From contig JAAFJS010000011.1 in assembly GCA_013298985.1 (NCBI GenBank), positions 1 through 49,147 of the forward strand: a DNA stretch of 49,147 nt, in the 5' to 3' direction. The DNA comes from Cytophagales bacterium (GTDB lineage Bacteria > Bacteroidota > Bacteroidia > Cytophagales > Thermoflexibacteraceae). Positions 878 to 38,694 of this stretch are shown one piece after another (the first letter of the stretch is position 1; each line of letters begins with the position of its first letter). The translations under genes and the position numbers were made by a program. Under the pieces are notes generated by a model, which was not told the DNA's origin, made no database searches, and saw nothing but the letters and a program-made list of their open reading frames with translations.

Positions 878-2803
878 TTAGCTAATTTTCAGCGTAAAAT
901 AAAACGTACTTCCTTGGTTTTTAATGCTTTCTACCCAGATTTTTCCACCATTTTTTTCTACAAATTCCTTACAAAGAGGCAAGCCCAAGCCCGTTCCTTT
1001 TTCGCCCGCAGTGCCAAGCGTACTGCTTTTATGCCCTACATCAAAGATATTTTGCATAAAAGCTGCGTCCATGCCCTTGCCCGTATCTTTGATAGCGATT
1101 TCGATGGCTTTATCTTTGGGAGTTGCGCTTATCACGATTTGTCCCTGCTGTGTAAATTTGAGGGCATTGGCTATGAGGTTTCTGAGGATAAAATCCAAGT
1201 GATTTTCATCTGCCCAAACCTTCAAATCAGGCGTTAAATTACTGACAAGTGTATTGCTTTTTGCTTGGGCTGTTGGCTGGAACAGGGCAAGCTGGTCTTT
1301 GATAATCGTATTCAAGTCAATCAAAACAGGGTTAAAATCAATGCTTTCCATTTGCAGACGCGCCCAAGTGAGCAGGTTGTTGGTCAGGTCAAGCGTATTA
1401 TTTACAGATTGATTGAGGTCTGTGGCTATCTTCTTAATTTCTTCCGCGCTCATGCCCTCAGCATACGTTGCCAGCAGGCTGGAAAAGCCTTTGAGTGAGT
1501 TCATTGGGCTTTTGAGGTCGTGAGAAACAATGGAAAAAAACTTATCTTTGGTTCTATTCATCTTTTCCAACGCTTGCTTTTGTGCTTCTATTTCCTTATT
1601 TTTACTTTCCAGTAATGTGTTGATTTTCTTTTGATTACGTTGATTTTTATAAAAAATAAAGGCAATAATGATAATAAAAAACAATGAAATGCCTAACAGA
1701 TATTCCAAATAGGTCTGCTGTTTCATTTTTAGCTCTTGTACTATTTTCTCACTTTTTAATGCCAAGATTTCTTTTTCCTTCTTTTCGTTTTCGTATTGCG
1801 CTTGCATATCTGCGACCTTTTTGATGCTTTCTTCGTTGAGGATAGAATCATTGAGGCTGATGTATTTTTTTTGAAAATCGTAGGCTTGTGCTATGTTGTT
1901 TTGGAGTCCATAAATCTCCGCCAACAGTTTGTAGCTATCCCTAATTCCAGCTTTCATCTCAATTTTTTTTGCATTTAACAGTGCTTTGGGGGCATAGTCA
2001 AGGGCAAGTGCCGTCTGATTTTTTTTCAAATACACACGCGCAAATGTCAAGTAAGTATCGTATAAGATGATATGTATGCTTTCATCACCAATGGACTTAC
2101 TTACCTGCTCTCCTTCGGTTAGTACAACGAGTGCAGAATCATAAGAGCCTTGTTTGAAGTACAAAGAACCCAGATTATTCAGGTTATGTGCCAAGCTAAT
2201 TTTGGCTTGTTTTGTTGTGAACTTACGATTAATCGCCTGAGCCTGAATGAGATAGATAGCTGCTTGCTTGTAATCTCCTTTATCTATTAAGATATTGGCG
2301 AGGTTATTCAGGCAAGAGGCGATGCGACCCTGCTCGCCCAGTGGTTCGAAAATTAGCAAGGCTTTTTGGTAATAATCATAGCTAAAAGGTTTGTTGCCCT
2401 GCCTACTATAAATATTGCCCAAAATCAAATACGTATTGGCTATACCCAGCGAATCTTTGAGGTTGTCAAAGATTGTTAAGCCCGCCAATGCGTTTTCTGC
2501 GGCGACCGTATAGTTGCCTATATTCCAGTGAATACTCGCTTTGGTACGCAGGGCATACGCCAATCCTTGCTGAAAATCAATGCTTTCTGCCAGCATAATC
2601 GATTCTGCTATATATTTGAGTGCCTGATGCTGTGCCACATTTCGGTATTCCCACCCCAACAAATTTAACGTTTCCACACGCTGCCTGCCTTCTACCGTTT
2701 TTAATACCTGTATCAGGCTGTCAGTAAAAACATTCAAAGATTTCCCCTTAGCAAAAGACAAAGGCAGGAACAGCAAAAAGAATAAAATAATTTTAAAAGC
2801 CAT
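878..2803 (-). CDS. TPR-containing sensor histidine kinase
   Basis: A 641-residue membrane sensor kinase. An N-terminal signal sequence (MAFKIILFFLLFLPLSFAKG) precedes several TPR repeats, roughly residues 60-330, expected in the periplasm. A single transmembrane segment (about 362-386) leads into a coiled coil (KNKEIEAQKQALEKMNRTK) and the kinase core. The H-box is FFSIVSHDLKSPMNS with phospho-acceptor His428. The ATPase domain has an N-box (NLIANALKFT) and G-boxes (DTGKGM and GTGLGLPLCKEF). Periplasmic TPR sensors coupled to HisKA/HATPase domains are common in Bacteroidota. No receiver domain or response regulator gene is adjacent, so it is an orphan kinase and its signal is unknown. Confidence 0.92.
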   Translation of the reverse strand: MAFKIILFFLLFLPLSFAKGKSLNVFTDSLIQVLKTVEGRQRVETLNLLGWEYRNVAQHQALKYIAESIMLAESIDFQQGLAYALRTKASIHWNIGNYTVAAENALAGLTIFDNLKDSLGIANTYLILGNIYSRQGNKPFSYDYYQKALLIFEPLGEQGRIASCLNNLANILIDKGDYKQAAIYLIQAQAINRKFTTKQAKISLAHNLNNLGSLYFKQGSYDSALVVLTEGEQVSKSIGDESIHIILYDTYLTFARVYLKKNQTALALDYAPKALLNAKKIEMKAGIRDSYKLLAEIYGLQNNIAQAYDFQKKYISLNDSILNEESIKKVADMQAQYENEKKEKEILALKSEKIVQELKMKQQTYLEYLLGISLFFIIIIAFIFYKNQRNQKKINTLLESKNKEIEAQKQALEKMNRTKDKFFSIVSHDLKSPMNSLKGFSSLLATYAEGMSAEEIKKIATDLNQSVNNTLDLTNNLLTWARLQMESIDFNPVLIDLNTIIKDQLALFQPTAQAKSNTLVSNLTPDLKVWADENHLDFILRNLIANALKFTQQGQIVISATPKDKAIEIAIKDTGKGMDAAFMQNIFDVGHKSSTLGTAGEKGTGLGLPLCKEFVEKNGGKIWVESIKNQGSTFYFTLKIS

Positions 2804-37146: not shown

Positions 37147-37183
37147 TAGTAGGAAACTATTTTTTGGGTAGTTAAGTTTTAGC

Positions 37184-37341
37184 TGTAGGGGAAGGACTCG
37201 AACCTTCACAGAGTAGTTAGTCGGCAAAATGAAATGAGATGTTCTTCCAGAGGAGGCATCTCAATTTCTTTTATTGGATTTATTCTATTTCCTCCACCCC
37301 CGAGATAGGAGGGCATGGCTGCCAAATTTCATCACCCTACA
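37184..37341 (-). ncRNA. tRNA-like RNA with a giant variable region, copy 1
   Basis: Read on the minus strand, a 158-nt RNA. TGTAGGG (37341-37335) pairs with CCCTACA (37190-37184) as a perfect 7-bp acceptor. A 3-bp D stem (ATG/CAT) holds a 12-nt loop with GG. The anticodon stem CCCTC/GGGGG has a 7-nt loop CTATCTC. The T arm is GAAGG-TTCGAGT-CCTTC. Between anticodon and T arms lies an 84-nt variable region, where AAATTGAGATG (37267-37257) pairs with CATCTCATTT (37241-37232). The anticodon would read AUC, and base 37 is a pyrimidine, which is unusual. The next base, G, is the discriminator position; CCA is not encoded. Copy 2 lies at 37921-38076. Confidence 0.7.
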
Positions 37342-37374
37342 TTATTAAATTGTTGATACTTCACCTCGAACTTT

Positions 37375-37435
37375 GGCAACAGCTTTAGCTTTGCTAACAG
37401 TTCTATAACTTTACCAACAGTTCTAAAAACTTCGG
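37375..37435. repeat. GGCAAC-family palindromic repeat, copy C
   Basis: GGCAACAGCTTTAGCTTTGC (37375-37394), followed by TAACAGTT, matches the core of copy A. AGC and GGCAA pair with GCT and TTGCT around a short loop. Two further ACAGTTCTA-type words follow (37397-37405 and 37416-37424). It lies in the leader region of tRNA-like copy 1. Confidence 0.45.
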
Positions 37436-37450
37436 CATATTATTAAAAAC

Positions 37451-37483
37451 AAAAAAGGTATGCACAAGATGCACACCCTTTTT
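37451..37483 (-). terminator. Intrinsic terminator, minus strand
   Basis: On the minus strand AAAAAGGGTGTGC (37483-37471) pairs with GCATACCTTTTTT (37463-37451) over 13 positions around a 7-nt loop, followed by TGTTTTT. The only non-Watson-Crick pairs are G-U wobbles on this strand; on the plus strand they would be A-C mismatches, so minus-strand use is favoured. Confidence 0.75.
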
Positions 37484-37556
37484 CAACCTTAACCAATAAA
37501 CAACGCATAAAATAGACATTCTCTTTATGAAATAATTTGAGTTGTCTGCTTTATTG
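37484..37556 (-). ncRNA. Possible short transcript between a consensus promoter and a terminator
   Basis: The promoter at 37563-37594 and the terminator at 37451-37483 on the same strand would make an RNA of about 105 nt, of which this is the body. It holds no reading frame longer than a few codons. The end of it resembles the trailer after tRNA-like copy 2 (words like TTATTTTA and TTGTTTA before the terminator). It may be a real small RNA or a decayed copy of the tRNA-like unit. Confidence 0.4.
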
Positions 37557-37562
37557 TTGATG

Positions 37563-37594
37563 CAAAGTTAAAAAAGATTTTTTGATTTTACAAA
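37563..37594 (-). promoter_or_regulatory. Consensus Bacteroidota promoter, minus strand
   Basis: TTTG (37594-37591), 20 bases, TAACTTTG (37570-37563). Sequence and spacing are the same as in the promoter of tRNA-like copy 2, including the following GCATCA. Confidence 0.75.
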
Positions 37595-37761
37595 TATTTC
37601 AAAGAAAATTTCAAAAATTTTGTTTTTTCTAAAAAATTGAATGTTTTATTGAAAAAATAGCAATTTTGTTAAACAAAACATTTTTAGAGGTACTTTTCTC
37701 AAAGATTAATTGATTGTTGCCGATATTTTAAATCCTTGATTTTCAGGCACTTTTGATACTA

Positions 37762-37799
37762 ACAAAAAAGGTATGCCTTTGTATGCACACCTTTTTTCT
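37762..37799 (-). terminator. Intrinsic terminator after tRNA-like copy 2
   Basis: On the minus strand AAAAAAGGTGTGC (37797-37785) pairs with GCATACCTTTTTT (37776-37764), with one G-U wobble that would be a mismatch on the plus strand, followed by TGTT. It lies about 120 nt beyond the 3' end of copy 2 and resembles the terminator at 37451-37483. Confidence 0.7.
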
Positions 37800-37920
37800 G
37801 ATTGTCAGTAAACAATTCTTAAAATAAATACGTTTTTTACAATTTTTTTGGCATTTTTTTCAAAAGTTTGCATAAATTTCAAAGTTCGTTATTAATGTAG
37901 CAAACTTTAATGCCTTTGGC

Positions 37921-38076
37921 TGTAGGGGAAGGACTCGAACCTTCACAGAGTAGTTAGCCTTTCCAAAGGTGAGTTAATACAACGGCGAACCGTTAGCTCA
38001 CTTTCAGAGTAGGTTTATCCCAGCTTCTCCACCCTCGAGATAGGAGGGCATGGCTGCCAAATTTCATCACCCTACA
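37921..38076 (-). ncRNA. tRNA-like RNA with a giant variable region, copy 2
   Basis: A 156-nt minus-strand RNA with the same fold as copy 1. Its acceptor is TGTAGGG (38076-38070) with CCCTACA (37927-37921). The D arm and the anticodon loop CTATCTC are identical, and the anticodon stem is perfectly paired here as CCCTC/GAGGG. The first 50 nt differ from copy 1 at one base and the last 39 or so are identical, yet the middle 70 nt share almost nothing. The middle again forms a long stem, AAAGTGAG (38004-37997) with CTCACCTTT (37973-37965), holding an inner AACGG-TTCG-CCGTT hairpin. A consensus promoter lies 22 bases upstream. No known RNA family is recognised. Confidence 0.75.
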
Positions 38077-38097: not shown

Positions 38098-38129
38098 CAA
38101 AGTTAAAAAAAACATTCTTTTATTGCAAA
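38098..38129 (-). promoter_or_regulatory. Consensus promoter of tRNA-like copy 2
   Basis: TTTG (38129-38126), 20 bases, TAACTTTG (38105-38098), read on the minus strand. With a start about seven bases downstream, the leader before the RNA would be about 15 nt, suitable for RNase P processing. Confidence 0.8.
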
Positions 38130-38214
38130 TTTTTCAAAGAAAATTTTAAAAATTTGCATAAAATTTAATAAAACACCAATATTATTGAAAATTTCATAAA
38201 ATACTATTTGAAAA

Positions 38215-38694
38215 ATGGACAAAAATTTAGAAATTGATAATACGGATATTCAGATTTTGGCGGAGTTAATGAAAGATGCCAAGACTCCTTATACGGAGAT
38301 TGCAGACAAAATCAATGTTTCGGGGGGGACGGTTCACGTCAGAATGAAAAAATTGGAAAAGATGGGCGTGGTCAGGGGGGCTTCCTTAGATGTCGATTTC
38401 CACAAACTTGGCTATGATATTACTGCGTTTTTGGGGATTTACCTCCAAAAAAGCTCTTTGTATGTGCCTGTTTCTGAGGAACTTGCGGGTATTCCTGAGA
38501 TTCTGAGCCTACACTACACCACTGGCGCATACAGTATTTTTGCGCGTATTATCTGCAAAAACACCAATCACCTCTTAGATGTCCTTCACAATAAAATCCA
38601 AAAAGTCAATGGCATAGAGCGCACTGAAACTTTTATTATCTTAGAAGAAAAACTGAGCAGACCCTTGCAGTTGGACATGGATTTGTTTAAATAA
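38215..38694 (+). CDS. Lrp/AsnC-family transcriptional regulator
   Basis: A 159-residue regulator. The N-terminal helix-turn-helix is DNTDIQILAELMKDAKTPYT then EIADKINVSGGTVHVRMKKL. The C-terminal RAM/AsnC ligand-binding domain follows (about 70-150) with YDITAFLGIYLQKSS and ALHYTTGAYSIFARI-type strands. These proteins form octamers, bind amino acids and control amino-acid or energy genes. The recognition helix motif SGGTVHVRMKKLEKMGV is standard. It is divergent from tRNA-like copy 2 and upstream of scpA. Its ligand and targets are not visible. Confidence 0.94.
   Translation: MDKNLEIDNTDIQILAELMKDAKTPYTEIADKINVSGGTVHVRMKKLEKMGVVRGASLDVDFHKLGYDITAFLGIYLQKSSLYVPVSEELAGIPEILSLHYTTGAYSIFARIICKNTNHLLDVLHNKIQKVNGIERTETFIILEEKLSRPLQLDMDLFK

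Follow-up and report, generated by a model that had tools for sequence, protein, structure and literature searches.

In bacterial Y RNAs a long stem is attached to a tRNA-like module. The tmRNA also combines a tRNA-like part with an extra domain, and tRNA-Sec, selC-like tRNA-Cys and allo-tRNAs are odd long-armed tRNAs that fall outside the standard models (PMC7609411). For bacterial tRNA-Asp, identity is conferred by G73, G34, U35, C36 and C38 together with G1-C72 and G2-C71, and the G1-C72 pair is strictly conserved and crucial for Asp identity (PMC9976931). GatCAB needs U1-A72, and both G1-C72 and U20a block it (PMC9976931, PMC4206432). In Escherichia coli, asnA is activated by the regulator AsnC, an effect that is abolished by asparagine (PMC4482635).

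The RNA described here is encoded in a window of 49,147 nucleotides, the whole stretch that was analysed, from a Cytophagales bacterium of the Thermoflexibacteraceae (assembly GCA_013298985.1, contig JAAFJS010000011.1, positions 1 to 49,147). That a tRNA-shaped RNA under selection exists at this locus is a solid conclusion from comparative sequence evidence. The RNA is found across a large part of one phylum and in large phages, and apparently escaped notice since programs for tRNAs and RNA families reject it; no description of it was found in the openly licensed literature, and an account elsewhere is possible.

Relation to known systems

Membership of tRNA-Asp, tRNA-Leu, tRNA-Sec/allo-tRNA, tmRNA and Y RNA was considered and rejected, as each fails a tested feature. 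The likeness to tRNA-Asp (GUC) lies in a majority anticodon loop that is the same except at position 37, in G73, G2-C71 and C38, and in a tRNA-type 3' end, whereas the RNA has U1-A72 rather than G1-C72, lacks A37, and carries a long, class II-like variable arm and a 3-bp D stem of the tRNA-Leu type. Its D arm is near that of the host's own tRNA-Leu (TGGCGAAATTGGCAGACGCA in Leu-TAG), and a long variable arm is a further likeness to tRNA-Leu, but the RNA has G73 in 91/91 copies where the tRNA-Leu genes of the same genome have A73, its loop is of the Asp type, and its variable arm is several times longer and contains an internal loop. With tRNA-Asn of the AspRS and GatCAB pathway it shares U1-A72 combined with G73, so that marks of aspartylation and amidation stand together (PMC9976931, PMC4206432); however, tRNA-Asn decodes AAY with U36, whereas the RNA has C36 and the decoding purine is lost.

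The long-armed tRNA-Sec and allo-tRNAs differ in their elongated acceptor-T branch (12-13 bp, the acceptor stem being longer), in contrast to an acceptor of 7 bp and a T stem of 5 bp in the RNA. Like tmRNA, the RNA occurs in phage tRNA arrays and joins an extra domain to a tRNA-like body, but it has an anticodon arm, no tag frame was found in it, and the host has an ordinary tmRNA too. The resemblance to bacterial Y RNAs, in a tRNA-like module with a long stem, does not extend to their partner Ro60/TROVE: the family (PF05731) is absent from the window's genome, is present in 13 of 59 relatives, and shows no co-occurrence with the RNA, which led to the rejection of this partner. As at the E. 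coli asnC-asnA locus, an AsnC gene stands beside a possible target with a link to asparagine, except that the RNA gene occupies the place of asnA. Overall, in its presumed mode of working the RNA comes closest to a non-canonical tRNA with a role other than decoding.

Structure of the RNA

The 6.06-Mb genome holds two copies of the RNA, both on the minus strand of the window (Table 1), and a genome search found no third. Copy 2 extends from 38076 to 37921 as far as position 72 and then has G73 and, ending at 37917, an encoded CCA; in copy 1 the corresponding stretch is 37341 to 37184, with G73 and CUA ending at 37180. A preliminary description of this DNA had reported two minus-strand copies with perfect 7-bp acceptors, D, anticodon and T arms and nearly identical ends, all of which are present, with one mismatch in the first 50 nucleotides (49/50 the same) and none in the last 39 (39/39).

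Table 1. Positions in the window of the RNA copies, their parts and the associated genes and signals.
Feature	Position	Strand	Basis or remark
AsnC-type regulator gene, head-to-head with the RNA gene	38215..38694	+	Pfam PF01037/PF13404; 2cg4; NCBIfam AsnC
Candidate AsnC operator TTGAAAAATTTGCAA, overlapping the -33 box	38123..38137	-	Putative; motif family ATATTTGC
Bacteroidota-type promoter of copy 2	38098..38129	-	TTTG 38129-38126, 20-nt spacer, TAACTTTG 38105-38098
Copy 2 of the tRNA-like RNA, U1 to encoded CCA	37917..38076	-	CM R1, 136.4 bits
Anticodon-like loop of copy 2, CUAUCUC	38037..38043	-	U35, C36, C38 kept; U37 replaces purine
Variable-arm stem P1 of copy 2, 5' strand GGAG	38027..38030	-	Covariation; partner 37947-37950
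Conserved internal loop of variable arm, copy 2, 5' side GAUAAA	38014..38019	-	Most copies have GAYAAA or nearly so
P2 hairpin of copy 2, variable	37958..38013	-	P3/P4 of fuller form absent
Conserved internal loop of variable arm, copy 2, 3' side CUAA	37954..37957	-	53/54 copies; invariant in 40-sequence alignment
Variable-arm stem P1 of copy 2, 3' strand CUCU	37947..37950	-	Covariation
Terminator-like hairpin and U run, 3' of copy 2	37764..37792	-	Sequence
Separate small transcript unit between the copies	37440..37570	-	Own TAACTTTGCATC box 37559-37570; terminator ~37451-37479
Copy 1 of the tRNA-like RNA, U1 to encoded CUA	37180..37341	-	CM R1, 135.2 bits
Anticodon-like loop of copy 1, CUAUCUC	37302..37308	-	Sequence

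Single-sequence folding of the two window copies is unconvincing alone (z = -1.0 and -1.9), and the structure is accepted because comparative evidence proves it. In an alignment of 40 sequences seven helices hold, and across the 31 proposed pairs 96.4% of cells are paired, compared with 47-55% when the partners are slid; double changes occur in 19/31 pairs versus 11.2 in shuffles. With 138 copies, in an alignment fitted to the model, the corresponding figures are 24/31 and 14.4. The covarying helices are those of the cloverleaf, anticodon arm pairs included, together with the variable-arm stems P1 and P1b. The selection on structure that had been suggested from the two copies alone is thus supported, and a covariation test had been among the checks proposed for it.

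According to 54 copies, the acceptor is UGURRGG/CCYUACA followed by G73, the D stem has 3 bp as in tRNA-Leu, the anticodon stem has 5 bp, and the T arm is normal. The cloverleaf features of an elongator tRNA are there, namely the 7-bp acceptor, the D, anticodon and T arms, U8, A14, G18-G19 and UUC/A58, as invariant or near-invariant columns. The variable arm in the same 54 copies is built of a 4-bp P1, a bulge of 3-5 nt, a 3-bp P1b, an internal loop GAYAAA/CUAA, which is near-invariant, and the P2 hairpin. Only over the P2 hairpin, about 56-58 nt, is the sequence unconserved, and this part is flanked by the covarying P1/P1b and the conserved loop. The preliminary description had stated that the middle of the RNA keeps its fold and not its sequence, with a comparable long stem in each copy. 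The P2 tips of the window copies are indeed unrelated in sequence, but the arm contains the conserved loop and P1/P1b, and the idea of comparable stems is not supported, since the predicted folds of the two tips differ.

In a fuller form of the arm, found in 102 of 262 distinct copies, the P2 stem is longer, P3 may be present, and a conserved hairpin (P4) contains a UNGA loop and a bulged A. Among the pairs of this hairpin, the core-adjacent one is constant, the next one forms in 82/102 copies and is of several types, and the outermost forms in only 46/102, which leaves the outer end of the hairpin uncertain. P3 and P4 have been lost from both window copies. Compact versions also occur, one of 79 nt without the arm extension in a relative (G023) and one of 98 nt in a viral contig (L231), and both keep the loop and acceptor identity bases save for A34 in the former. 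The large variable arm, which can be lost, is taken to be an accessory domain that probably serves as a binding platform. The 79-nt copy (L246, 736-814) has its own promoter-like box and a strong terminator, and lies on a contig other than that of AsnC.

In the whole window, Rfam 15 gave no family at gathering score and ARAGORN called no tRNA or tmRNA, which agrees with the earlier suggestion of a tRNA-derived RNA outside known families. Matches below the Rfam threshold (L20_leader, rli61 and STnc390) all map to the small unit lying between copies 1 and 2 and none to the RNA, and for one full-form bacterial and one viral copy Rfam returned no family up to E = 5.

Identity elements and the anticodon loop

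Loop statistics were obtained from 91 distinct copies collected without a loop constraint; the pattern used for named genomes fixes parts of the loop, so its matches were excluded. U35, C36 and C38 are each present in 91/91, whereas position 34 is G in 75 and A in 12, both window copies having A34. Position 37 is U in 80, C in 8, G in 3 and never A, that is, a pyrimidine in 88/91 and a purine in 3/91; because G37 occurs in 7 of the 262 copies, the position is not absolutely non-purine. Position 33 is free, with U33 in 63/91 and another base in 28/91. The family thus does not keep the U33 and purine 37 that mark elongator tRNAs, in line with the earlier view that a pyrimidine at 37 makes the RNA poorly fit for decoding. 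It had also been said that the loop CTATCTC would read AUC. The triplet at 34-36 of the window copies is indeed 5'-AUC-3', but it would pair with the Asp codon GAU, and most relatives have GUC.

The majority loop, CUGUCUC, compares with CUGUCAC in the ordinary tRNA-Asp of the window's genome and of several carrier phages. The RNA thus has a tRNA-Asp loop changed at 37, and position 33, on which decoding depends but AspRS does not, is free; the bases read by AspRS are kept while the needs of decoding are relaxed. U1-A72 and G2-C71 are each found in 90/91 copies and G73 in 91/91, and in viral copies, where acceptor pairs 3-70 to 7-66 vary with compensation, U1-A72, G2-C71 and G73 are kept in 25/25.

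The AspRS determinants G73, G34, U35, C36, C38 and G2-C71 are accordingly present in the family, with A34 in the window copies, where recognition by AspRS should be weaker; this is a point against charging. A further point against it is that the G1-C72 pair of tRNA-Asp, crucial for Asp identity, is absent and replaced by U1-A72. The RNA carries the marks for GatCAB, namely U1-A72 and a D loop of the form GG-Y-A with no 20a. Among 207 tRNAs called in the sequences analysed, U1-A72 is found in tRNA-Gln (12/12), tRNA-Ile (7/10) and tRNA-Asn (3/5), and otherwise only in two copies of the RNA, which ARAGORN labels as tRNA-Asp.

At the encoded 3' end of the RNA, C74 is fixed and positions 75-76 are free. 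The ordinary tRNAs of carrier phages (viral loci L217-L245) obey the same rule, with C74 in 196/196 and 75-76 free, and this rule for the encoded 3' ends of phage tRNAs is worth checking across Bacteroidota.

The AsnC-type regulator and transcription signals

Among the named-genome matches listed, AsnC is the first upstream gene, in head-to-head orientation, in 74 of 120 loci, and 13 of the remaining 46 have no upstream gene on the sequence piece; the next commonest neighbour family reaches 15 loci. In these loci, no Lrp/AsnC gene was found elsewhere around the RNA. Clustering of neighbours gave 39 further loci in which an Lrp/AsnC regulator is first upstream and divergent. Some host copies do not adjoin AsnC, and phage copies never do.

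The best solved match of the regulator is E. coli AsnC (2cg4, 118.8 bits), with the next match at 79 and E. coli Lrp at 37. NCBIfam AsnC (NF008384) is the best match for 7/7 regulators, with scores of 152-182 bits; these lie below the equivalog cut-off of 227, so the regulator is regarded as a diverged AsnC-type protein. It is the one PF01037 gene, and the sole gene of the Lrp/AsnC family, detected in the window's genome. The YTTG motif common to the regulator and E. coli AsnC is only suggestive of a response to asparagine.

The dedicated promoter that the preliminary description placed before copy 2 is of the Bacteroidota type, and copy 1 has no obvious promoter upstream. TAnnTTTG stands within 60 nt upstream of 87/167 first copies, compared with a background of 3.5%. 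A motif, ATATTTGC, occurs in 23/66 AsnC-RNA intergenic regions versus 1.4 expected when the loci are counted as unrelated, and its occurrence in the window is a candidate AsnC site.

Among the 15 relatives without the RNA, a close AsnC-type gene is present in four (L288, L290, L292 and L293), a weaker AsnC-like gene in one, and only distant Lrp-type genes in ten. In a sampled Flavobacteriaceae genome that lacks the RNA, a second subtype of AsnC-like gene adjoins tRNA-Asn (L300, 1372-1446), a neighbourhood absent from the other second-subtype loci examined.

Distribution in bacteria and phages

A BLAST survey gave matches in 41 of 59 relatives. Since it had missed some copies, covariance model (CM) searches were adopted, and these place the RNA family in 44/59 relatives and leave 15/59 without it; the homologues that the preliminary description proposed to look for are thus plentiful. 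True copies mostly score 96-147 bits and a few truncated or compact ones 67-95, whereas ordinary class II tRNAs reach about 60 or less. In a phylum sample of 296 genomes, the RNA is found in the order to which the window belongs, in three families of the class that lie outside this order and in one family outside the class; matches of 80-90 nt at 50-60 bits were taken as class II tRNAs from their length and the score gap and were left uncounted. A pattern scan of named genomes gave at least 120 loci, among them at least 113 from Bacteroidota and one from an Ignavibacteriales MAG, and the first 100 loci contain 136 CM matches of at least 96 bits. Carriers among the matches listed include Pedobacter, Mucilaginibacter, Chitinophaga, Dyadobacter, Spirosoma, Hymenobacter, Algoriphagus, Cyclobacterium and Saprospiraceae.

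In IMG/VR, 28 of 29 viral contigs were confirmed as carriers. Most of these have the RNA within or next to a tRNA array, with up to 25 tRNA genes and in some cases a tmRNA; in one contig (L225) the RNA is 5 nt from tRNA-Ser and 5 nt from tRNA-Leu, and the 636-kb phage genome LR756504.1 has one copy within its tRNA array. When compared with named phage and plasmid records, the window copy gave chance matches only; among the viral copies compared with named phage records, one huge-phage record was matched and two other viral queries matched none. Phage tRNA arrays may hold more than decoding tRNAs. In four of the phage contigs with such arrays, a tmRNA with a tag peptide is encoded as well (L227, 1363-1749; L229, 2331-2708; L232, 1840-2225; L231, 3960-4294).

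Possible function and alternative explanations

Among the roles offered in the preliminary description, that of a substrate of tRNA enzymes is favoured over a decoy or an odd tRNA gene because of the AsnC linkage, the Asp-type loop and the phage copies. More specifically, we tentatively propose an AsnC-controlled, AspRS-charged, non-decoding RNA, a reading to which we give a little less than an even chance. AsnC would set transcription of the RNA by the level of asparagine, as E. coli AsnC does for asnA, the precursor would be trimmed and provided with CCA like other tRNAs, and AspRS would load it with aspartate. With its pyrimidine at 37, the RNA would not be used for GAU/GAC and would have a role outside codon reading, in which the bound Asp or Asn might serve asparagine supply or act as an aminoacyl donor.

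Because U1-A72 replaces the G1-C72 of tRNA-Asp, GatCAB may amidate the RNA-bound aspartate to asparagine. In this fuller version, which we regard as possible though doubtful, the asparagine would be released or handed on under the control of AsnC, the RNA would be a non-translational RNA cofactor, and huge phages would bring their own copy within their tRNA kit. GatB_N, from the GatCAB subunit searched, is present in the window's genome and in 53/59 relatives and is not discriminating. AsnRS, asparagine synthetase and GatB occur in nearly all relatives, with or without the RNA, and a gap-filling role in asparagine metabolism was rejected, since near-universal enzymes leave no obvious missing function to fill; AsnA is found in 5/59 relatives, too few for a co-occurrence test.

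Several observations count against the proposal of an AspRS-charged RNA under AsnC control: the RNA is missing from 15/59 relatives, four of which keep an AsnC-type gene; there are copies not linked to AsnC, the phage copies among them; the near-universal AsnRS, asparagine synthetase and GatB leave it no obvious gap to fill; and the conserved arm loop and P4 hairpin are left unexplained. The same base set and the same AsnC linkage would also fit an RNA that is not usefully charged but sits on AspRS or on some other enzyme of the Asp/Asn branch, so that AsnC tunes aspartylation as asparagine changes, and regulatory RNAs that mimic the anticodon towards synthetases are known (review PMC9976931). 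This regulator would need no intact acceptor end, yet even phage copies with changes in the other acceptor pairs retain U1-A72, G2-C71, G73 and a tRNA-type 3' end, and we consider it unlikely. Rather improbable, to a similar degree, is a regulatory RNA that is never aminoacylated, whose arm and loop bind RNA or protein and whose tRNA shape serves only processing and stability. The large conserved arm with its internal loop and P4 hairpin, and the RNA's own promoter, would suit such a role, but in the compact copies it is the arm that is lost while the loop and acceptor bases stay, the opposite of what it predicts.

Phage carriage would be explained if the RNA were a decoy or stand-in against anticodon nucleases or similar enzymes that cut or inactivate tRNAs, as the position of most viral copies in tRNA arrays, some with tmRNA, might suggest. 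However, host copies are far commoner, chromosomal and tied to AsnC, positions 33-34 vary although nucleases needing U33/G34 should keep both, and U1-A72 would be unnecessary, which makes a decoy quite unlikely. We are equally sceptical of a real, if odd, decoding tRNA by which GAY codons would receive Asp or Asn under certain conditions, through regulated mistranslation or in a special context. Most copies do have a GUC or AUC anticodon, the determinants of the L shape are complete, the processing signals are tRNA-like, and phages hold the RNA beside large tRNA sets; against this stand the pyrimidine at 37 in nearly all copies, the lack of A37, the replacement of U33 in almost a third, and an ordinary tRNA-Asp in the same genome and in several carrier phages. 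The tandem copies might finally suggest that duplication has spread pseudogenes or tRNA genes in decay, but this explanation has a negligible probability, as it is refuted by strong covariation across many genera and at least two classes, besides the fixed gene context and the promoters.

Should the RNA prove to be charged and non-decoding, it would represent an aminoacyl-RNA dedicated to a non-translational role, with a regulator to itself, and the purpose of such RNAs would become testable in culturable carriers such as Pedobacter, Chitinophaga and Dyadobacter.

Associated small unit and other tRNA-like genes

The tail of the small unit between the two window copies stands directly 3' of the RNA in relatives. 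There, a segment, TGTTTATTTTATGTGTTGTTTATTGGTTAAGGTT, and a terminator are conserved about 7 nt after the RNA (L288, 1202-1276; L012, L013, L015, L018, L026, L028 and L037). In the window, the segment is part of a distinct unit that has a promoter to itself, and in one relative (G007) it is kept beside AsnC where the RNA has been lost; the unit is possibly a trailer-derived small RNA. Elsewhere in the window's genome, contig C304 carries two further tRNA-like genes of unusual form, 169 and 123 nt long (2418-2586 and 2192-2314, minus strand; L280), with the acceptor GAAAGCAG/CTGCTTTC and abnormal anticodon regions, which belong to a family different from the AsnC-linked RNA.
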